DNA of 21,519 nucleotides from the IMG/VR virus record IMGVR_UViG_3300025759_000832, positions 1-21,519 of that record. One strand, written 5' to 3'. The stretch is from a virus. A model generated the notes under the pieces. It worked only from the letters and a program-made list of their open reading frames with translations, was not told where the DNA came from and made no database searches. Both the position numbers and the translations under genes were made by a program. This document shows positions 9,300 to 21,519 of the stretch, in pieces; position 1 is the first letter of the stretch; every line of letters begins with the position of its first letter.

Positions 9300-9330
9300 A
9301 AAAAAGGCGATCTTTATGGTCGCCTTTTTT
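9300..9330 (+). terminator. Rho-independent terminator after the capsid gene
   Basis: AAAAAAGGCGA, a 9-nt loop, then TCGCCTTTTTT: a perfect inverted repeat with a GC core and a six-T tail. The matching A run on the left makes it able to work in both directions. It closes the head transcript. Confidence 0.93.
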
Positions 9331-10208: not shown

Positions 10209-10229
10209 ACTTTACAAAATAAAGTTTTT
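10209..10229 (+). terminator. Weak terminator-like hairpin overlapping the uvsY promoter
   Basis: ACTTTA, loop CAAAA, TAAAGT, then TTTT, placed immediately after the stop of the tail-tube-fold gene. The 6-bp stem has a single GC pair, so it is weak. It overlaps the -35 box of the promoter below. Confidence 0.3.
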
Positions 10230-10239
10230 GTGGTATACT
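10211..10239 (+). promoter_or_regulatory. uvsY: Sigma-70-type promoter for uvsY
   Basis: TTTACA, 17-bp spacer, TATACT: each box matches the bacterial consensus at 5 of 6 positions. The expected start near 10246 leaves a 12-nt leader containing GGAG (10249-10252) before the ATG at 10258. This marks the change from late virion genes to genes read by the host polymerase. Confidence 0.7.
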
Positions 10240-12648: not shown

Positions 12649-12677
12649 ATTGTAACACAAAGTTATGAAAAAGTCAA
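12649..12677 (-). promoter_or_regulatory. Possible minus-strand sigma-70 promoter, antisense to the Sm-like gene
   Basis: Read on the minus strand: TTGACT (12677-12672), a spacer of exactly 17 nt, then TACAAT (12654-12649). Both boxes match the consensus at 5 of 6 positions. Transcription would begin near 12642 and run leftward into the 3' end of the Sm-like gene and then uvsW. No minus-strand gene is recognisable there, so the product would be an antisense or small RNA. Confidence 0.4.
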
Positions 12678-12699: not shown

Positions 12700-12728
12700 T
12701 TGACAAAAAAGAGGATACCTAGTATATT
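12700..12728 (+). promoter_or_regulatory. gp55: Sigma-70-type promoter for gp55, start site at the ATG
   Basis: TTGACA, 17-bp spacer, TATATT: a full match and a 5-of-6 match to the consensus. Only 6 nt separate the -10 box from the gp55 ATG, so the transcript should begin on or beside the start codon. This lets host polymerase make the late sigma factor. Confidence 0.75.
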
Positions 12729-12734
12729 ATAATT

Positions 12735-13274
12735 ATGGCAGCAAAAAAAGAACATTACGTTAATAACAAAGAGTTTTTAGAGGCTATGAAAGCCTACAAA
12801 AAAAGTGTAAACAAAGCAAAAAGAGAAAAGAAAGATAAACCACCAGTAACTAATTATATTGGTAGTTGTTTTTTAAAGATAGCAAATCATTTATCATATA
12901 GACCTAACTTTATAAATTATACATTTAGAGACGATATGGTTAGTGATGGTATCGAAAACTGTCTACAATACCTAGATAATTTTGATCCTGCTAAATCAAG
13001 TAATCCTTTCGCTTACTTTACACAAATTATATATTACGCATTTATAAGAAGAATACAAAAAGAAAAGAAACAAACTACTATAAAACATAAACTTATTATG
13101 GATAGTAATTATGATGATGTAGCTTTACAGCCAGGTGATGACGCAGAATTTAAAAATCAATTTAGAGAATTCTTACAAAAGAATTTAAAGATGGACGATA
13201 CTCAACCTAAAAAAGTAGAAAAAAAGAAAAAGAAAACTAGAGTAAAAAAATCTACATCTAAATTATTTCACTAA
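12735..13274 (+). CDS. gp55: Late transcription sigma factor
   Basis: Small sigma-70-family protein that replaces the host sigma and directs RNA polymerase to TATAAATA late promoters. It has 179 residues (T4 gp55 is 185). HYVNNKEFLEAMKAYK aligns with the start of T4 gp55. The central part (ANHLSYRPNFINYTFRDDMVSDGIENCLQYLDNFDPAKSSNPFAYFTQIIYYAFIRRIQKEKKQ, about residues 52-115) is the sigma region 2-like core. The C-terminal 30 residues are mostly lysine. In T4 this end carries the sliding-clamp binding motif, and here it ends KSTSKLFH. The start agrees with T4. No Shine-Dalgarno sequence precedes it, and the promoter geometry predicts a leaderless message. Confidence 0.93.
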   Translation: MAAKKEHYVNNKEFLEAMKAYKKSVNKAKREKKDKPPVTNYIGSCFLKIANHLSYRPNFINYTFRDDMVSDGIENCLQYLDNFDPAKSSNPFAYFTQIIYYAFIRRIQKEKKQTTIKHKLIMDSNYDDVALQPGDDAEFKNQFREFLQKNLKMDDTQPKKVEKKKKKTRVKKSTSKLFH

Positions 13275-13277
13275 AAT

Positions 13278-14342
13278 ATGAAAATAGCTTTGTTAAATGA
13301 TACGCACTTTGGTGCGAGAAACGATAGTCCAGCATTTTTGGATTATTTTATGCGATTCTATAATGAGATATTTTTTCCATATCTAAAAGAGAATAACATA
13401 ACAACCCTTGTACACTTAGGTGATGTAGTAGATAGAAGAAAATTTATCAACTTTAAAACAGCACATACATTTAGAGAAGACTTTATGCATAGATTGTATA
13501 AAGAAGGTATTGATACACATATTATATTAGGTAACCATGACACCTATTATAAAAACACAAACGAAGTAAATGCGATTAAAGAATTATGTACAACATTTGA
13601 TGGTATAAAAGAGCCTTGGATATATGATAAGGCAGTAACAAAAAATTTTGGCGGCACCGATATTTGTTTAATACCATGGATATGTGATGACAATTATGAA
13701 CACTCTATTAATGAAATAGAAAATAGTAATGCACAAATAGCTTTAGGTCATTTGGAAATAAAAGGTTTTGAAATGAACGCAGGTCATGTTAATATGCAAG
13801 GATTAGATAAGTCTATGTTTCGTAGATTTGAAAAAGTTATATCTGGTCACTTTCATAAAAAATCTGATGATGGTCAAGTTTACTATCTTGGTTCTCAATA
13901 TGAAATTACTTGGTCAGACTATAAGTGTCCTAAAGGTTTTCATATACTAGATACAGAAACAAGAGAGATAACTAGAGTACCTAATCCAATTAGAATACAT
14001 AAGAAGTTAATATACAATGATAAAGATAATGACTATGTAAATATGGACTTATCACATTTTAAAGACACCTTTGTAAAAGTTTTTGTAACAAATAAAACTA
14101 ATGAAGAAATGTTTAATAATTTAATTGATAGATTACACAATACCATAGATACACATGAAGTTAATATAATAGAAGATTTAAATACAGATATTACAGCATC
14201 TGTAAAAGATAACGTACTAGAACAAGGGGAAGATACACTTACTTTTTTAGGCAACTATGTAGAACAAATAGATAGTGATTTAGACAAGAACAAGCTTAAA
14301 GAAGTTATGAAAGATTTATATACTGAAGCAAGTGAAAGATGA
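13278..14342 (+). CDS. gp47: Recombination nuclease subunit, Mre11/SbcD type
   Basis: Metallophosphoesterase subunit of the gp46-gp47 complex, which resects DNA ends to start phage recombination and helps degrade host DNA. It has 354 residues. Metal-binding motifs are in order: NDTHFG (Asp8, His10), HLGDVVDRR (Asp49), GNHD (Asn86, His87), ALGHLEIKG (His158) and SGHFHKK (His191, His193). The region beyond about residue 230 is the capping and partner-binding part, ending in charged helices. It starts 3 nt after the gp55 stop and overlaps the gp46 start by 4 nt (ATGA), as expected for obligate partners. Confidence 0.95.
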   Translation: MKIALLNDTHFGARNDSPAFLDYFMRFYNEIFFPYLKENNITTLVHLGDVVDRRKFINFKTAHTFREDFMHRLYKEGIDTHIILGNHDTYYKNTNEVNAIKELCTTFDGIKEPWIYDKAVTKNFGGTDICLIPWICDDNYEHSINEIENSNAQIALGHLEIKGFEMNAGHVNMQGLDKSMFRRFEKVISGHFHKKSDDGQVYYLGSQYEITWSDYKCPKGFHILDTETREITRVPNPIRIHKKLIYNDKDNDYVNMDLSHFKDTFVKVFVTNKTNEEMFNNLIDRLHNTIDTHEVNIIEDLNTDITASVKDNVLEQGEDTLTFLGNYVEQIDSDLDKNKLKEVMKDLYTEASER

Positions 14343-16054
14343 TATTATTTAAAAAGATTAGATGGAAGAACTTTCTATCTACTGGAAACAACTTTGTTGA
14401 AATAGAACTAAACAAGTCACAGATGACGTTGATGATCGGCGCTAATGGCTCTGGTAAATCAACTATGTTAGACGCATTGACCTTTGCGTTATTTAATAGA
14501 CCTTTTAGACTAATCAAAAAAGAACAGATAGTAAACACTATAAACAATGGCGACACCAGAGTAGAGTTAGAGTTTCAAATAGGAACAAAAAACTTTAAAG
14601 TTATAAGAGCTATCAAACCTACGATATTTGAAATTTATTGTGATGGTGTATTACAAAACCAAGATGCCTCTAGTGTAGATTATCAAAAGGTATTAGAAGA
14701 TCAGATATTAAGATTAAATTATAGAGCATTTAAACAGATCGCTGTTCTAGGCTCATCATCTTATCAACCATTTATGCAGATGAGACCAAGACATAGACGA
14801 GAGGTGGTTGAAGAAATATTAGACATAAGAGTATTGACACATATGGATATACTTACAAGAAATCAACAAACTGATTTAGGTAAACAAATTGTAGAAGCTA
14901 GACACCAATGTGATTTAATAGAATCAAAACACGAATTACAAACAAAACATTATAACGATTTAAAAAATAGAAGTACAGGCGATATTGATATTAAGAAACA
15001 AAAACTACAAGAAAATAAAGACGCCACTGAATCATATTTAAGAAAAGTAGAGAGATTAGAAGAAGAATATAAACAATTAGAATCTAGCACATCTGAAAGA
15101 CCTCAATATGAAACAAAATTAAAACAATTAGAAAAACTAGAAACAAAAATAGAACAAAATTTAGAGACACACAAAAAAAGTTTAGACTTTTTTGAACAGA
15201 ATGATAACTGTCCTGTATGTACTCAAAAGATAGAAGAACAATTTAGAGACGAAAAGATAGAAAAAGAAAGAGCCAAAGTGGTCACACTAAATCAAGGTAT
15301 GAAAGATTTGGTCTCTGAATTATCAAAAGTAGAAAACAAAATTATAGAATTCAATGGTATATCAGATAAGATATATGAAAACAAAATACAAATGTCAAAA
15401 GTAGAATCTTCACTAAAAGAACTAAAAAGATTTACGGACACCTTACATAATGAGATATTATTGTTAGAAGGTAAAGATGAAGACGATAAAGATATTGTTA
15501 TGAATTTGGTAAGACTAAAAGATCAATTAGAAGAAACCAAAGTAGAACTAGATAAGATAACAGAAGAAAAGAAATACCTAGATGTAGTTAGAGAGATACT
15601 ATCAGATAGAGGTGCGAAAGCTAAGATCATTAAAAAGTATCTACCTATTATGAATAGTTTAATTAATCAATATCTACAATCTATGGACTTCTTTGTATCT
15701 TTCCATTTAGATGAAGAATTTAAAGAGACTGTAAAGAGCAGACACAGAGATACCTTTGATTACAATAATTTTAGTGAAGGTGAGAAGATGAGAATAGACT
15801 TGGCTCTTGTATTTACTTGGCGTGCAATCGCAAAGATGAAAAACAGCGCCAACACAAACCTGATGGTACTTGATGAAATATTTGATAGTAGTTTAGATGG
15901 TCAAGGTACAGATGACTTCTTTAAAATTGTAAACAAAATGGGTAAAGAAAATATCTTTATTATATCACATAAGGGCGATATACTATTTGATAAGTTTACG
16001 AATATAATCAAGTTTGAAAAAGAACATAACTTTACGAAATTACAAAATGTTTAA
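14339..16054 (+). CDS. gp46: Recombination nuclease ATPase subunit, Rad50/SbcC type
   Basis: SMC-like ATPase partner of gp47. It has 571 residues. Walker A is GANGSGKST (Gly34 to Thr42, Lys40). The Q-loop region follows near QIAVLGSSSYQPFM. Long coiled-coil arms flank a zinc hook CPVC (Cys291, Cys294) that joins two molecules. The ABC signature is FSEGEK (478-483) and Walker B is LMVLDEIFD (508-516, Asp512 and Glu513). ISHKGD gives the switch histidine. It is translationally coupled to gp47. The following accessory gene starts within its last codons. Confidence 0.95.
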   Translation: MILFKKIRWKNFLSTGNNFVEIELNKSQMTLMIGANGSGKSTMLDALTFALFNRPFRLIKKEQIVNTINNGDTRVELEFQIGTKNFKVIRAIKPTIFEIYCDGVLQNQDASSVDYQKVLEDQILRLNYRAFKQIAVLGSSSYQPFMQMRPRHRREVVEEILDIRVLTHMDILTRNQQTDLGKQIVEARHQCDLIESKHELQTKHYNDLKNRSTGDIDIKKQKLQENKDATESYLRKVERLEEEYKQLESSTSERPQYETKLKQLEKLETKIEQNLETHKKSLDFFEQNDNCPVCTQKIEEQFRDEKIEKERAKVVTLNQGMKDLVSELSKVENKIIEFNGISDKIYENKIQMSKVESSLKELKRFTDTLHNEILLLEGKDEDDKDIVMNLVRLKDQLEETKVELDKITEEKKYLDVVREILSDRGAKAKIIKKYLPIMNSLINQYLQSMDFFVSFHLDEEFKETVKSRHRDTFDYNNFSEGEKMRIDLALVFTWRAIAKMKNSANTNLMVLDEIFDSSLDGQGTDDFFKIVNKMGKENIFIISHKGDILFDKFTNIIKFEKEHNFTKLQNV

Positions 16055-16607
16055 ATATTACGGCGATATATTGTTTGTTTATTCTCTACCAGATCACCTA
16101 GAGATAAAAGATAAAATTTTAAGTAATCTAACACAAGGTGGTCCTGTACACGACAGTGTCACAAAAGTAGGTATTAGTAAAACAGATTATCATATACCTT
16201 ACAAAGAAAAATCACAATATTTTAAAATTTTAGAAAATAGTTTACAAAAACATCTACACCCACTACTAGCAAAAAAATTTGAGTGTGTTGAGTTTTCTAT
16301 ACAAAAGTCCTGGTATCAACAATATACAAATAACAATGGACACAATTGGCACTATCACGGTGAATGTAATATGATAGGTGTTTACTTTTTAGAATTGCCT
16401 GATACTAAATTTAAGACACAATTTAGAGATATGATTAGAGACAAACACATAGAATACGAAGCGAAAGAGGGTGACATAGTTTTTACAAACTCTTTGACAC
16501 TGCATCAATCACCAATACTAGAATCTGATAAGAGAAAGACAGTGATTAGTTTAAACTATAATATGACAGAGGTAGATACACACCCAGTTGAGGTAATAAG
16601 TGGATAA
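16047..16607 (+). CDS. Fe(II)/2-oxoglutarate oxygenase-like protein A
   Basis: Predicted non-heme iron dioxygenase; substrate unknown. The 186-residue form starts at the ATG 16047, overlapping gp46 by 8 nt. An in-frame TTG at 16014 would overlap more and is less likely. The C-terminal half has the double-stranded beta-helix pattern: HNWHYHGECNMIGVYFLELPD with candidate iron ligands His102 or His104 and Glu106, EGDIVFTNSLTLHQS with distal His153, and KRKTVISLNY with Arg163 as probable 2-oxoglutarate anchor. This resembles 2OG oxygenases common in marine phages. No clear Shine-Dalgarno sequence precedes it. It is the first gene of the accessory block after gp46. Confidence 0.7.
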   Translation: MFKYYGDILFVYSLPDHLEIKDKILSNLTQGGPVHDSVTKVGISKTDYHIPYKEKSQYFKILENSLQKHLHPLLAKKFECVEFSIQKSWYQQYTNNNGHNWHYHGECNMIGVYFLELPDTKFKTQFRDMIRDKHIEYEAKEGDIVFTNSLTLHQSPILESDKRKTVISLNYNMTEVDTHPVEVISG

Positions 16608-17025
16608 GGTAGAATTTATAAAAGGTTATAATTTAGAGATACCTACTTGGGCTGAGATTATAGATAACTTAAATGTATCTAATGACAATGGTGAGTTTGT
16701 AAAAAATACAACACCAGGTTTCTTTGTTGCTCATAACGCAGAGAGAATAGAGAAAGTTAGATTAGTTGCGAAAGAACTAGGTTGTATGTTTGCTCATAGT
16801 TATATAAATTTTTTAAAATCTAGTAGAACATTTGGCGATCACAATGATACAATGACTGTTAGATTTTGGCAGGGCGAAGGTATGACCAAATGGCTTGTAA
16901 ATGGTAATGAAGAATACATACTAAACCCAGGTGATTTAATTATCATACCTAAAGGTGTTTATCATAATGTAAAACCACTAACACCAAGATTTGGTATATC
17001 TATGTCAGATGAGGGTGTAGTATAA
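16600..17025 (+). CDS. Cupin protein with HxD...H triad (possible Fe(II) oxygenase)
   Basis: A 141-residue single-domain cupin. The GTG start at 16600 is supported by GAGG at 16590-16593 and overlaps the previous gene by 8 nt. Residues 76-136 form the barrel: RTFGDHNDTMTVRFWQG (His81, Asp83), LVNGNEEYILNPGDLIIIPKGVYHNVKPL (His122), then RFGISM (Arg130). His81-x-Asp83...His122 is the 2-His-1-carboxylate arrangement of iron oxygenases such as JmjC-type enzymes, and Arg130 could hold 2-oxoglutarate. A non-enzymatic sugar- or metal-binding cupin is the alternative. The substrate is unknown. Its stop overlaps the next ATG by one base. Confidence 0.65.
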   Translation: MDKVEFIKGYNLEIPTWAEIIDNLNVSNDNGEFVKNTTPGFFVAHNAERIEKVRLVAKELGCMFAHSYINFLKSSRTFGDHNDTMTVRFWQGEGMTKWLVNGNEEYILNPGDLIIIPKGVYHNVKPLTPRFGISMSDEGVV

Positions 17026-17501
17026 TGAGAGTTATAGATAATTATTTACCTAGTGAAGTCGCAGATAAGATAGAGGCCAACTTAATCAATGATTGGTTTC
17101 CTTGGTTTTATACAAGTCAGGTTGTCAAACCTTACAATGTATCTTGTTTCACCCACATACTATTAGATGAAAGAAATAAAAAGTCTGATTATGCTGATGA
17201 GATATTACTACCAATTGTCAGCAACATAAATGGTAAAAAAATGTTAAGGGCCAAAGCGAATTGTTATACAAAGACAGAAAACTATATACACTACCCTTAT
17301 CATTTAGACAGGGAAGATGATGATTTTAAAGTTGCCATATATTATGTAAATACAAATAATGGTTATACAGAGATTAAAGATAAAGGTAAAGTAGAGAGTG
17401 TGAAAAATAGATTACTTTTAATGAATGGTGATGAAGAACATAGATGTACAAATCAAACAGATAAAGAGTTAAGGGTAAATATAAACATAAATTATAAGTG
17501 A
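17025..17501 (+). CDS. Fe(II)/2-oxoglutarate oxygenase-like protein B
   Basis: A 158-residue protein with a complete predicted active site: YPYHLDRE gives His93-x-Asp95, NGDEEHRCTNQT gives His139, and ELRVNININY gives Arg150 at the 2-oxoglutarate position. Hydrophobic strands FKVAIYYVN and SVKNRLLLMNG lie between them, as in the prolyl-4-hydroxylase-like fold. The compact size fits a minimal catalytic domain. It differs clearly in sequence from the three other oxygenase-like proteins nearby, so these are not recent duplicates. Substrate unknown; protein or small-molecule hydroxylation is possible. Coupled to the cupin gene by a one-base stop-start overlap. Confidence 0.7.
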   Translation: MRVIDNYLPSEVADKIEANLINDWFPWFYTSQVVKPYNVSCFTHILLDERNKKSDYADEILLPIVSNINGKKMLRAKANCYTKTENYIHYPYHLDREDDDFKVAIYYVNTNNGYTEIKDKGKVESVKNRLLLMNGDEEHRCTNQTDKELRVNININYK

Positions 17502-17507
17502 GGATAT

Positions 17508-18065
17508 ATGAAAGATTTAAAATTAATACCACCAAGTGATCCTAGAGTACAATCAGCTATCGCACCATTTAGTGATGATATGTTAAAAGAACATAATTTT
17601 AAAGATAGAAAAGAACTAACAGATTCCATGTTTGCGACAATGAAGAAATATGGTGGTATAGGTTTAACTTGTAATCAAGTTGGGTTACCATACAATATGT
17701 TTGTACTTGGCGATCATATAGGTTTGGAGAATGGTCTAAAGATGGCTTGTTTTAATCCTATGATTATATCAACAGGTGTAGAAGAAGTTGCAATGAAAGA
17801 AGGTTGTTTAACTTTTCCATTTGTATTTTTAACTATTACAAGACCTAGAAAATGTGTGGTAAAATATGAAGATGAAAATGGCGATCTAAAAGAAGGTAGT
17901 TTAGATGGTATGTTTAGTAGAATATTCCAACACGAATACGACCACGTTATGGGTAAAAACTTTACAGAATACGCTTCTAAATTAAAACTAGATAGAGCTT
18001 ATAAGAAAGCTGAAAAAGAAATGGATAGGGCTCAAAAATTACGTGCCAAGACTCAAAGTAAATAA
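17508..18065 (+). CDS. def: Peptide deformylase
   Basis: Metalloenzyme that removes the formyl group from the N-terminal methionine of new proteins at the ribosome. It has 185 residues. All three family motifs are present: GGIGLTCNQVG (residues 49-59, motif 1), EGCLTFP with metal ligand Cys100 (motif 2, with Thr where bacterial enzymes usually have Ser), and QHEYDHVMG with ligands His142 and His146 and catalytic Glu143 (motif 3). The C-terminal tail is a basic helix (LDRAYKKAEKEMDRAQKLRAK). Phage-encoded deformylases are known from marine phages. It has a GAGG ribosome binding site and lies between two oxygenase genes. Confidence 0.93.
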   Translation: MKDLKLIPPSDPRVQSAIAPFSDDMLKEHNFKDRKELTDSMFATMKKYGGIGLTCNQVGLPYNMFVLGDHIGLENGLKMACFNPMIISTGVEEVAMKEGCLTFPFVFLTITRPRKCVVKYEDENGDLKEGSLDGMFSRIFQHEYDHVMGKNFTEYASKLKLDRAYKKAEKEMDRAQKLRAKTQSK

Positions 18066-18615
18066 TAGTATTTTTTATAGAGAGTTTAATATCTCTAAAG
18101 AAGAAATAGGTTATCCTGATGGTTGGCATGGTGGTAATTGGAAACAAGAAGACTTTATAAAAGATATAGAACAAGATTTAATAGATAACCCAGCGCCAGA
18201 TCATATACCACCTTATCAAACACACGCACAATTATACGATAGAATGAAAGGTCGTAAACATTGGGACGACTTATATCTTAAAATAAAACACTCACTATTA
18301 AGATATTATACAAAAGAATTTACACTATGGAAAAGTTGGGCAAATGTTGCGAAAGAAAATAATAGATTTGGTAATCATACACACCCTTGTGATTTAACAG
18401 TGGTGTATTATTTAAAATGTGACTTACCAGAATATGGCACTTACATAGTTGATGAAGATATTATGATACCAGCAGTTAATGATTCTCTCCTAATATTTAA
18501 ACCTGACATAGAACATAGACTTACTAATATGCCCTTTGAACTCGCTGTACACCCTCAAAATCATAGATATTCCATAGTATTTGACTTCAACATTGACAAA
18601 TCAAAAACAACCTGA
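18043..18615 (+). CDS. Fe(II)/2-oxoglutarate oxygenase-like protein C
   Basis: A 190-residue protein. The start is uncertain: the GTG at 18043 lies within the end of the deformylase gene, no strong ribosome binding site is visible, and the first in-frame ATG is about 68 codons in, too late for the domain. The C-terminal half carries FGNHTHPCDLTVVYYLKCDLPE (His112, His114), NDSLLIFKPDIEHRL (His158) and HRYSIVFDFN (Arg175), the pattern of phage 2OG oxygenases. Conventional Asp or Glu as the third ligand is not obvious after His112. The N-terminal half contains a Trp/Gly-rich stretch (YPDGWHGGNW). Substrate unknown. Confidence 0.6.
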   Translation: MPRLKVNNSIFYREFNISKEEIGYPDGWHGGNWKQEDFIKDIEQDLIDNPAPDHIPPYQTHAQLYDRMKGRKHWDDLYLKIKHSLLRYYTKEFTLWKSWANVAKENNRFGNHTHPCDLTVVYYLKCDLPEYGTYIVDEDIMIPAVNDSLLIFKPDIEHRLTNMPFELAVHPQNHRYSIVFDFNIDKSKTT

Positions 18616-18621
18616 TATATT
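18593..18621 (+). promoter_or_regulatory. Sigma-70-type promoter with start site at the next ATG
   Basis: TTGACA, 17-bp spacer, TATATT, then 6 nt to the ATG at 18628. Boxes, spacer and distance to the ATG are the same as for gp55. The -35 box lies inside the end of oxygenase-like gene C. Confidence 0.7.
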
Positions 18622-18627
18622 TACACC

Positions 18628-19284
18628 ATGAAGAATTTAAAAGAGAATTTTTTAGAAAACGATACTAATTGTAAGGTACAATCATTATATGGTATGCCTG
18701 TAATGATATTTGAGAATGCGTTTAAAACAAAACCAGCAGAATTAGAATTAATAAAAAATTTAGAATTTGAAGGCGAAGATGAAAACAATGTGGTTAAGAC
18801 ATCTAAAAACAAACATTTATTAAATGAGAAAATAGAACTTGCAGTTGTTAGAGATCAGATAAATCACTATGCCTGTAAATTTATTGATGAGATTATTAGT
18901 GTAGATAATGATTTTGAAATGGTACATAGTTGGGTATCAAAAACTAGACCTGGCGAAGACCATCATCAACACTTTCACCCTGGCGCTATTTTTAGTCTAG
19001 TGTATTATGTAGAGTGTGAGAAATCAGAGTTTTATTTTAACCCAAAACAAAACTTTCTAACAAAGGGTTTTAACTTTGATTATAATATAAAAAACTATAA
19101 TATATTTAATTCACTTGAGGTGACTTATGGACCAACGACAGGTGACATATTAATATTTCCTGGTTGGGTATTACATAGAGCAAAAAACTTAGGTAATAGT
19201 GATAAGTATATAATAGGTGCGAACTACTTTATTAGAGGCGATGTGGGTAGTTATGATAAACTTACAATAGTTAAAGATATATGA
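18628..19284 (+). CDS. Fe(II)/2-oxoglutarate oxygenase-like protein D
   Basis: A 218-residue protein of the phage 2OG-Fe(II) oxygenase type. FEMVHSWVSKTRPGEDHHQHFHPGAIFSLVYYVECEKSEFYFNP (about 97-139) holds candidate ligands among His112, His113, His115 and His117. TTGDILIFPGWVLHRAKNL gives distal His183. The usual Arg at the 2-oxoglutarate position appears to be Lys193 (NSDKYIIGANYF). LYGMPVMIFENAF near residue 20 is a typical opening strand of the family. It is expressed from its own sigma-70-type promoter, probably as a leaderless message. The next gene overlaps by 4 nt (ATGA), so the methyltransferase is in the same transcript. Confidence 0.7.
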   Translation: MKNLKENFLENDTNCKVQSLYGMPVMIFENAFKTKPAELELIKNLEFEGEDENNVVKTSKNKHLLNEKIELAVVRDQINHYACKFIDEIISVDNDFEMVHSWVSKTRPGEDHHQHFHPGAIFSLVYYVECEKSEFYFNPKQNFLTKGFNFDYNIKNYNIFNSLEVTYGPTTGDILIFPGWVLHRAKNLGNSDKYIIGANYFIRGDVGSYDKLTIVKDI

Positions 19285-20417
19285 CATATAAACCATACTT
19301 TATGAAAGACGTAATAGATAACTCTAATAAAGAGTTGTTTAATGTTATATCTACCTTTGCTGGTGGTGGTGGGTCTTCCACTGGTTACAGACTAGCAGGT
19401 GGTAAGATATTATGTGTAAATGAATTTGTAGAAGCAGCGATTGAAACATACAAAGAAAACTATCCTAATACACCTGTTTTACCAGATGACATAAAGAAAC
19501 TTACTGGCGAAGACTTTTTAAAGATTGCTGGTATTAAGAAAGGTGAGTTAGATATATTAGATGGCTCACCACCATGTTCTGCGTTTAGTATCGCAGGTAA
19601 AAGAGAAAAAGGTTGGGATCAAACCAAGACATATTCAGACGGAAAACAAGTAGAAAATATAGAAGATTTGTTTTTTGAGTTTACTAGAATTACAGCAGAC
19701 ATTATGCCAAAGGTTGTTATTGGTGAGAATGTTGCTGGTATAACTATGGGTGAAGCCATAGAATATAGAAATAGAATTATAAATGAATTTGATAAGATGG
19801 GTTACGAAACTGTATATAAAGTATTGAGTGCCGCTGATTTTGAAACACCACAAGATAGAAAAAGATGTTTCTTTGTAGCGATAAGACACGACATTATGGA
19901 AAAAGCAGGTCTTAACTTTATGACTTTAGAAAATGAGATATATCCAAAGCCAGTTACACCTAAACACATAGGAGTAAAAGAAGCAATAGAAGATGTGGTT
20001 AATGACCCAGAACAAGAAAAAGAGTTATTTGATTATGTACAAAATGGCTTTCAAAAGAAGTGGATAGAACTATTAGAATTTAATCCAAAAAGACATAGAA
20101 AACCTAGTGATCCAGACTTTATTGATATAAACCCTAAAAGATCAATGTTTAATATGATAAGACCAGCGCCACATTTACCTTGTCCAACACTTACTCAAAG
20201 AGGTCAACAAATGAGTGTATCAGGTGTATTTCATTATGCGAAGAATCGTAAGTTTACTATACCAGAATTAAAAAGACTTATGGGATTACCCGAAGATTAC
20301 AAGTTAGAAGGTAAGTTTGATAAACAAGCTGAGAGAATCGGTAGAATGGTAGCGCCACTAATGATGAAGAATCTAGCGTCTAATATATACGAAAAAGTGT
20401 TAAAAAGAACAAAGTAA
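19281..20417 (+). CDS. C5-cytosine DNA methyltransferase (orphan)
   Basis: Transfers a methyl group from S-adenosylmethionine to carbon 5 of cytosine in DNA. It has 378 residues. Motif I is STFAGGGGSSTGYRLAG (residues 24-40), motif IV is DGSPPCSAFSIAG with catalytic Cys99, motif VI is VVIGENVAGI, motif VIII is PQDRKRCFFVAIR, and motifs IX and X are PTLTQRG and the ERIGRMVAPLMMKNLASNIY end. The order is complete, so activity is expected. No restriction enzyme is adjacent, which suggests self-protection against host restriction or a regulatory mark. The start overlaps the upstream oxygenase stop as ATGA. The target sequence cannot be read from the protein. Confidence 0.93.
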   Translation: MTYKPYFMKDVIDNSNKELFNVISTFAGGGGSSTGYRLAGGKILCVNEFVEAAIETYKENYPNTPVLPDDIKKLTGEDFLKIAGIKKGELDILDGSPPCSAFSIAGKREKGWDQTKTYSDGKQVENIEDLFFEFTRITADIMPKVVIGENVAGITMGEAIEYRNRIINEFDKMGYETVYKVLSAADFETPQDRKRCFFVAIRHDIMEKAGLNFMTLENEIYPKPVTPKHIGVKEAIEDVVNDPEQEKELFDYVQNGFQKKWIELLEFNPKRHRKPSDPDFIDINPKRSMFNMIRPAPHLPCPTLTQRGQQMSVSGVFHYAKNRKFTIPELKRLMGLPEDYKLEGKFDKQAERIGRMVAPLMMKNLASNIYEKVLKRTK

Positions 20418-20443
20418 GAACATCTACCACCAAAAACACTAGT

Positions 20444-20476
20444 AAAATCAACGCAATTTATAGGGTTGACTTTTTT
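20444..20476 (+). terminator. Possible weak terminator overlapping the next promoter
   Basis: AAAATCAAC (20444-20452) and GTTGA-C-TTTT (20465-20474) pair with one bulged C around a 12-nt loop, and a run of six T follows. The stem is AT-rich. Its right arm contains the -35 box TTGACT of the next promoter, so termination and initiation signals share bases. Confidence 0.35.
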
Positions 20477-20494
20477 AATCTTTCCATATAGTAT
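20466..20494 (+). promoter_or_regulatory. Sigma-70-type promoter with start site at the CobT-like ATG
   Basis: TTGACT, 17-bp spacer, TAGTAT, then 7 nt to the ATG at 20502. The -10 box is weaker than in the gp55 and oxygenase D promoters, and TATAGC at 20492-20497 is an alternative. The 36-nt distance from -35 to ATG matches the 35 nt of those two. Confidence 0.5.
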
Positions 20495-20501
20495 AGCTAG
20501 T

Positions 20502-21519
20502 ATGGACACACAAACAATTAATTTAGATACAAAATCAATACTCGCAAAGTTAATCGCTACCGAGAATATTCAAGTACAACATAACAAAGTTAAAACCGCT
20601 TCGTTTGATACGAAACATAGAGTTTTAACATTACCAGTTTTCAAAAATCAAAAGGGTGATGTTTACGATATGTTAATCGCACACGAATGCGCTCACGCTT
20701 TACATACTCCAACAGATGGTTGGGCAAAGATAGAAGATGACTCTTTAAGATCATATGTAAATGTATTAGAAGATTGTAGAATAGATAGAATTATACAAAA
20801 ACAATACCCAGGTGTTGTTAAGAATTACTTAAATGGTTTTGATATATTAGAAAAACAAAACTTCTTTGGTACTAATGGCAAAGACCTTAACAAAGAATTA
20901 ATGTTGATTGATAAGATCAACTTGTTTTATAAGTCTTCAAAAAGATTACCGATTTCTTTCTCCGCTGTTGATAACAAATGGTTAAGTAAGGTTGACGCAT
21001 TACAAACGTTTGATGATGTTGTTGACCTTGCTAAACAATTATTAAATTGGCAACAAAAAGAAGTAGAGAAGTTAAAAAAATTACCTGACTTTGATAAACA
21101 TTTAATCTCAGACAATTATAATCTTAATGATGATGAGAGCGAAGATGAATCAAAAGGTGAAGAGTCTAGTGAAAATGGTCAAGGTCAAGAAGCTGAAGAT
21201 AATGGCGAAGATAAAAAAGATGGTAGTGAGCAAACACATACAAATGCTGAAGCACAAGAAGGTGGTGGTAAAGGTGTTGCGCCAGATAAGTTAATTTCAA
21301 TTACTAATGAGAACATGGAATCTAAAATGTCTAGTTTACATGATGAAGAAAAAAGTTACGCATACTTTACTTTACCAAAAGTTAAATTAAATGATATGAT
21401 TGTTTCTAATAATAAGTTTTTAAATGATATGAGAAAGCACATATTAGATTGTACTAAAAAATATCCAAGTGATTTGATATATTACAATTGGTTAAAAGGT
21501 GCTTATAAAGATTTTAAAA
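20502..21519 (+). CDS. CobT-like metallopeptidase/VWA-type protein (partial at window end)
   Basis: The frame is open from the ATG at 20502 to the last base, giving 339 residues without a stop. Residues 58-70 contain HECAHALHTP, an HExxH zinc-peptidase motif (His61, Glu62, His65). VNVLEDCRIDRII with Glu90 follows, a plausible third ligand region. Residues about 210-260 are a long acidic Asp/Glu/Ser/Gly linker like that before the VWA domain of CobT-type cobaltochelatase subunits. The VWA domain, if present, lies beyond the window. Marine T4-like phages carry such a gene together with a CobS-like AAA+ ATPase. No CobS-like gene is within this window. The role in infection is not settled from sequence. 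No Shine-Dalgarno sequence precedes the ATG. Confidence 0.7.
   Translation, partial: MDTQTINLDTKSILAKLIATENIQVQHNKVKTASFDTKHRVLTLPVFKNQKGDVYDMLIAHECAHALHTPTDGWAKIEDDSLRSYVNVLEDCRIDRIIQKQYPGVVKNYLNGFDILEKQNFFGTNGKDLNKELMLIDKINLFYKSSKRLPISFSAVDNKWLSKVDALQTFDDVVDLAKQLLNWQQKEVEKLKKLPDFDKHLISDNYNLNDDESEDESKGEESSENGQGQEAEDNGEDKKDGSEQTHTNAEAQEGGGKGVAPDKLISITNENMESKMSSLHDEEKSYAYFTLPKVKLNDMIVSNNKFLNDMRKHILDCTKKYPSDLIYYNWLKGAYKDFK

Follow-up and report, generated by a model that had tools for sequence, protein, structure and literature searches.

The Analyzed Contig and Its Gene Content

The window, i.e., the whole stretch of DNA that was analyzed (21,519 nucleotides), is a 21.5-kb viral contig of a T4-like marine phage. 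The first genes are those of the tail, portal, prohead, and capsid; uvsY, uvsW, gp55, gp47, and gp46 follow, and behind them lie several oxygenase genes, the genes for peptide deformylase and a DNA methyltransferase, and a CobT-like gene. Some of the gene names were assigned on the basis of PHROG matches, and the rest from the gene order and the annotation of the Pelagibacter phages Mosig and HTVC008M. A strong intrinsic terminator, consisting of a 13-bp stem and a T-run, lies behind the major capsid gene (9300–9330).

The plus-strand gene gp55 (12735–13274; phrog_234, E 7e-64) encodes the late sigma factor. Its product was most similar to those of Mosig (80% identity) and HTVC008M (69%), followed by the OM43 phage Melnitz and cyanophages. 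Mosig, the closest isolate, infects Pelagibacter HTCC1062, and the nearest isolates point to a SAR11 host for the window phage.

Three Promoters Adjacent to Start Codons

The gp55 gene is preceded on the plus strand by TTGACA (12700–12705), a 17-nt spacer, and TATATT (12723–12728), with 6 nt left to the ATG at 12735. The −10 hexamer begins at position −12 from the ATG, and both boxes occupy the same position in relatives. The same elements stand before gene D, encoding a 2OG-Fe(II) oxygenase (18628–19284, plus strand; phrog_81, E 1.5e-27): TTGACA (18593–18598), located within the 3′ end of the preceding gene, 17 nt, TATATT (18616–18621), and 6 nt to the ATG at 18628. The −10 box of D is of the extended type (TGATATATT, 18613–18621), and since its TGA both terminates the gene before D (18043–18615) and provides the TG of the extended −10, this promoter is embedded in the coding sequence. 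The CobT-like or "peptidase" gene (20502–21518, plus strand, running off the window; phrog_459, E 6e-81) follows TTGACT (20466–20471), 17 nt, TAGTAT (20489–20494), and 7 nt to the ATG at 20502. In all three genes, the TANNNT hexamer starts at −12 or −13 from the ATG, and no Shine–Dalgarno (SD) 4-mer was found before any of the three ATGs (0/3). The uvsY gene presents a leadered contrast, as its promoter (TTTACA-17-TATACT, 10211–10239, plus strand) lies 18 nt from the ATG, leaving a leader of about 12 nt with GGAG. The first-pass annotation of this DNA had reported the common geometry of the three promoters, the lack of SD sequences at the three genes, and the different organization of uvsY; the coordinates, the 17-nt spacers, the 6/6/7-nt distances, and the uvsY leader all proved correct.

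The promoters of gp55 and D were the only ones in the scanned 19.9 kb of the window to score 11/12 against the sigma-70 consensus. The CobT-like promoter matched at 9/12 positions, its −10 box is weak alone, and other possible −10s overlap with it. Despite its score, this promoter is credible because its position was kept in 25/25 relatives, all having TTGAC 35–37 nt before an ATG start codon and a −10-like hexamer (TAGATT, TAGTAT, TATATT, or TATTAT) in the corresponding position, 6–7 nt before it. Promoter-like sites as a whole were no more numerous in the scanned 19.9 kb than in shuffled sequences (84 vs. 93.6 expected by chance, sd 10.3), so the case rests on position and conservation. Three promoter–ATG pairs were detected in the window vs. 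none with permuted −35 controls.

All three promoters agree with the host sigma-70 (T4 early-type) pattern of TTGACA, 16–18 nt, and TATAAT. Two other T4 promoter classes were rejected by reading the upstream regions. MotA-dependent middle promoters did not fit, as TTGAC is present at −35 and the MotA box TGCTTtA was found in none of the three regions. T4 late promoters, which consist of TATAAATA alone with no −35, did not fit either, the sites here being TATATT or TAGTAT combined with a conserved TTGAC −35 box.

Spacing of the gp55 Promoter among Related Phages

The set of 80 close IMG/VR relatives of gp55 was extended to Mosig-, HTVC008M-, and cyanophage-like sequences, giving 324 loci, 198 of them distinct. 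Nearly all of the 80 close relatives carried TTGAC[A/T]-17-TATATT-like elements at a distance of 6, 7, or 9 nt from the ATG, and the DNA upstream of the −35 box varied widely among them. Over the 198 distinct loci, the distance between the −10 box and the ATG was bimodal. It amounted to 6 nt in 66 loci, 7 nt in 19, 9 nt in 27, 10–13 nt in 4, and 20–47 nt in 66; no promoter was recognized by the rule used in the remaining 16, and distances of 8 or 14–19 nt did not occur among the distinct loci. SD 4-mers preceded gp55 in 0/85 loci at 6–7 nt vs. 29/66 loci at 20 nt or more. In the class at 9 nt, leaders of 2–3 nt could be formed; GAGG/AGGA was present in 12 of these 27 loci, between the −10 box and the expected RNA start. 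The start codon was ATG in 197 of the 198 distinct loci.

The loci at 6–7 nt had 32 different linkers and 72 different spacers; hence, the gp55 promoter is conserved in length and not in sequence. The base preceding the ATG was T or C (134/150 loci at 6–7 nt), consistent with the usual pyrimidine–purine transcription start. In a FastTree tree of 153 gp55 sequences, many inner branches of which are weak, the 6–8 nt class required 5 changes vs. 51 after shuffling. The window belonged to a well-supported set of 33 sequences, all at 6–8 nt, and the cyanophage, HTVC008M, and Melnitz branches were leadered. Longer leaders or SD sequences in homologs had been named in the first-pass annotation as evidence against leaderless mRNAs. 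They do exist in gp55 of HTVC008M, Melnitz, and cyanophages, where the predicted leaders are at least 13 nt long and some bear SD sequences, whereas none was found inside the clade of the window, which makes the leaderless trait lineage-specific.

Gene D and the Methyltransferase Promoter

In the window, D sits between the promoter and the DNA methyltransferase gene (19281–20417, plus strand; phrog_116, E 1e-68), whose start lies in an ATGA overlap with D, and it is the ATG of D that is found 6 nt past the −10 box. In two relatives without D (L007 and L095), gacttcaacaTTGACAaatcaaaaacaacctgaTATATT, identical to the window, is followed by 6 nt and the ATG of the methyltransferase gene. The same arrangement was observed with a different promoter sequence in L108, where D is present and the linker has 7 nt, and in L099, where D is missing and the linker has 6 nt. 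In most of the D-less relatives reaching this junction, 6 or 7 nt separated the −10 box from the methyltransferase ATG, the exceptions being L094, L096, and L101 (10 nt) and L106, which had no promoter. The first ATG holds its promoter distance in both pairs irrespective of the gain or loss of D, a result difficult to account for unless the spacing as such is important.

The oxygenase gene D (window 18628–19284; L108 3001–3666) is a cassette gained or lost precisely between the promoter and the methyltransferase start, and it was seen with two promoter sequences (window vs. L007/L095 and L108 vs. L099).

Gene-Blind Scan for Promoter–ATG Pairs

The IMG/VR loci fetched for gp55, the CobT-like gene, and D were also scanned with no gene start preselected, the nearest or longest ATG being taken as the gene start. 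The scan revealed 118 distinct promoter–ATG pairs, of which 97 were spaced by no more than 9 nt, and permuted −35 boxes gave a mean of 1.0. Four-base SD motifs accompanied 7/97 pairs at 9 nt or less vs. 7/8 pairs at 15 nt or more. These counts are not independent of the gp55 and CobT-like results because the scan contains those loci. Among the further genes found were the methyltransferase gene, a DUF4338-like gene, and, in one clade, uvsY at 9 nt and lacking an SD sequence. When applied to the isolates, the same scan yielded 7 pairs in Mosig, mostly at 6–10 nt, and 13 pairs in HTVC008M, divided between 7–12 and 25–35 nt. In Mosig, the predicted distance is 6 nt for an oxygenase gene (start at 95079) and a DUF4338 gene (start at 15683, minus strand) and 9 nt for gp55, and the leader predicted for gp55 of HTVC008M is about 21 nt long.

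Shine–Dalgarno Use in the Phages and in SAR11

An SD 4-mer was present before 9/11 structural-region genes of the window. A temporal split between SD-led structural genes and SD-less early genes was considered and rejected: the difference in the window (9/11 vs. 5/14, p 0.04) was not general, being absent in Mosig, in HTVC008M, and overall (39/67 vs. 39/69, p 0.86). Ribosomal protein S21 is annotated in Mosig and HTVC008M, and tmRNA in Mosig (L109 9932–10141; L113 42228–42431; L111 13467–13805); such phage-borne translation factors could have a bearing on leaderless or SD-dependent initiation.

In the SAR11 strain HTCC9565 (760 kb examined), SD-like 4-mers preceded 8% of 728 gene starts, near the background level. 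Since SD sequences are this rare, their absence alone is weak evidence, and the argument rests on the distance. No clear leaderless signal was found in the HTCC9565 genome. A weak TANNNT bump was visible at −12/−11, before operon genes too, with few −35 matches, and the exact TTGACA-17-TATAAT sequence did not occur within 30 nt of an ATG in the 1.3-Mb genome.

Leaderless Transcription as the Preferred Explanation

In E. coli, the −10 hexamer of sigma-70 promoters occupies positions −12 to −7 relative to +1, and this geometry was assumed for the host. With the hexamer ending 6–7 nt before the ATG, transcription is expected to start on or near the A of this codon. The spacing of the promoters is conserved amid sequence turnover, SD sequences are absent, and the arrangement alternates in relatives with longer, often SD-bearing leaders; both the transcription start and the use of a 5′-AUG by the ribosome are what we infer. 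Altogether, we consider leaderless transcription the best explanation for the gp55, CobT-like, and D/methyltransferase promoters, and we hold it with considerable confidence. In the proposed mechanism, the host RNA polymerase with a sigma-70-type factor would read the three promoters, probably early in infection, and transcription would begin on the A of the ATG or within about 1 nt of it. The predicted leaderless mRNAs would be those of gp55, the CobT-like gene, and whichever gene comes first behind the D/methyltransferase promoter (D in the window), and host ribosomes would start on them at the 5′-terminal AUG without the SD helix.

The alternative that survives best, although we regard it as unlikely, is that the mRNAs are only nearly leaderless, transcription starting a few nucleotides earlier or the genes being read from a read-through message, with ordinary SD-independent initiation by the host on AT-rich mRNA. 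The scarcity of SD sequences in the examined SAR11 genome leaves some room for it, as do the distances of 9–13 nt in some relatives and the genes lying upstream on the same strand, but a freely varying leader would not produce the sharp peak at 6–7 nt together with the empty range of 14–19 nt. A second alternative is genome compaction, according to which the promoters were simply packed against the genes and the leaderless start was not selected. Such a by-product might be expected in dense genomes where a promoter such as that of D lies inside the preceding gene; it is nevertheless highly improbable, as the linker of gp55 in the window is exactly 6 nt despite 84 free bases upstream of the −35 box, and the relatives are found at 6–9 nt or at 20 nt or more instead of being spread. 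Finally, the idea that translation starts downstream of the annotated ATGs, behind longer leaders, for which gp55 offers an in-frame internal ATG about 17 codons in, can be practically dismissed, as the gp55 and CobT-like starts are supported by N-termini conserved from the ATG (MAAKxEHYV in gp55 of both the window and S-BM3, whose leader differs, and the nearly identical MDTQ starts of the CobT-like proteins).

Returning to leaderless initiation, the clean switch to a normal leader in relatives of the same genes makes it look like a conserved second mode of translation start. The search for ATG-locked promoters among homologs, suggested by the first-pass annotation, was borne out, as the 6–7 nt distance is kept not only within a deep clade of gp55 sequences but also at the CobT-like gene and the D/methyltransferase junction while linkers and spacers vary. 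That annotation had spoken of a deliberate second mode: the homologs support the second mode, and the word "deliberate" is to be read solely as maintenance by selection. It is possible rather than probable that the promoters form a separate ATG-locked class that needs leaderless initiation and includes gp55, that the timing of late transcription is set in this way by the leaderless capacity of the ribosomes, and that orthologues switched between the leadered and leaderless channels in a small number of evolutionary steps.

Comparison with Known Leaderless Systems

According to the literature, leaderless bacterial genes are recognized by a TANNNT motif located some 12 bp ahead of the start codon (PMC3160421). 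These "TA-led" genes of Actinobacteria, Deinococcus, Lactococcus, and Sinorhizobium share with the window phage this position of TANNNT before the ATG, the lack of SD sequences, the bimodal leader length, and the AUG start (PMC3160421, PMC3616915, PMC10986495). TANNNT at about −12 without SD characterizes the three window genes and 85/198 gp55 loci. The end-mapped mRNAs of Lactococcus cremoris fall into two leader classes with none of 4–14 nt (PMC10986495), a gap resembling that in the gp55 distances, and in S. meliloti, also an alphaproteobacterium, every one of 171 mapped leaderless mRNAs has an AUG start (PMC3616915). In contrast to the bacterial genes, the present ones belong to lytic T4-like phages, their orthologues switch between leaderless and leadered forms, and the leaderless state is predicted from DNA.

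Most of what is known of leaderless translation in phages concerns single repressor genes. The lambda cI mRNA is likewise that of a phage regulatory gene with a 5′-terminal AUG (PMC9031893, PMC3160421), which is predicted here; however, cI encodes a prophage repressor, whereas the genes predicted here, that of the late sigma factor among them, belong to T4-like phages and are conserved over a wide clade. T4-like early promoters have been predicted in the OM43 phage Melnitz (PMC9004378), likewise of the host sigma-70 type before gp55.

No report of leaderless genes in pelagiphages or cyanophages was found in the literature searched, and in the one Melnitz paper examined, "leaderless" occurs as the title of a cited gene-finder. 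Maps of cyanophage transcription start sites exist. Leaderless mRNA itself is of a known kind; within the literature searched, no description of a conserved leaderless late sigma factor in T4-like phages seems to exist, and the switching of one orthologue between two initiation modes appears new. With gp55, a single orthologous regulator occurs both with and without a leader in hundreds of related phages, offering a natural comparative system for the evolution of leader loss and for the leader lengths that are avoided. From the leaderless reading, a concrete prediction follows for relatives of the SAR11 phages, for which gene callers and reporter designs that rely on SD sites will be misleading.

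Divergent Promoter Upstream of gp55

A conserved divergent sigma-70 promoter was noticed on the minus strand upstream of gp55 (12677–12641), with TTGACT at 12677–12672 and TACAAT at 12654–12649. By a strict rule, it was present in 82/124 distinct loci vs. 1.5 in dinucleotide-matched random sequences. A looser rule and a wider stretch detected it in 281/321 gp55 loci, including cyanophages, the random control applying to the strict rule only. TGT was found 5–6 nt past the divergent −10 box, at the expected start site, in 176/182 distinct sequences having the promoter, and the bases flanking it tended to pair as covarying palindromic arms (mean stem of 3.84 vs. 3.05, the maximum of 300 shuffles being 3.29). 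Folding of the minus-strand RNA showed no general excess (mean z −0.26), and no Rfam match was obtained for it at the gathering threshold. The transcript would be antisense to the 3′ end of the gene upstream of gp55. The promoter may produce an antisense RNA or a transcript at a replication origin, or the region around its start site may be an operator. In the cyanophage gp55 promoters (L116, L117, and L118), the forward and divergent −35 boxes nearly overlap as a palindrome, TTGACA-(~3 nt)-TTGTCAA.
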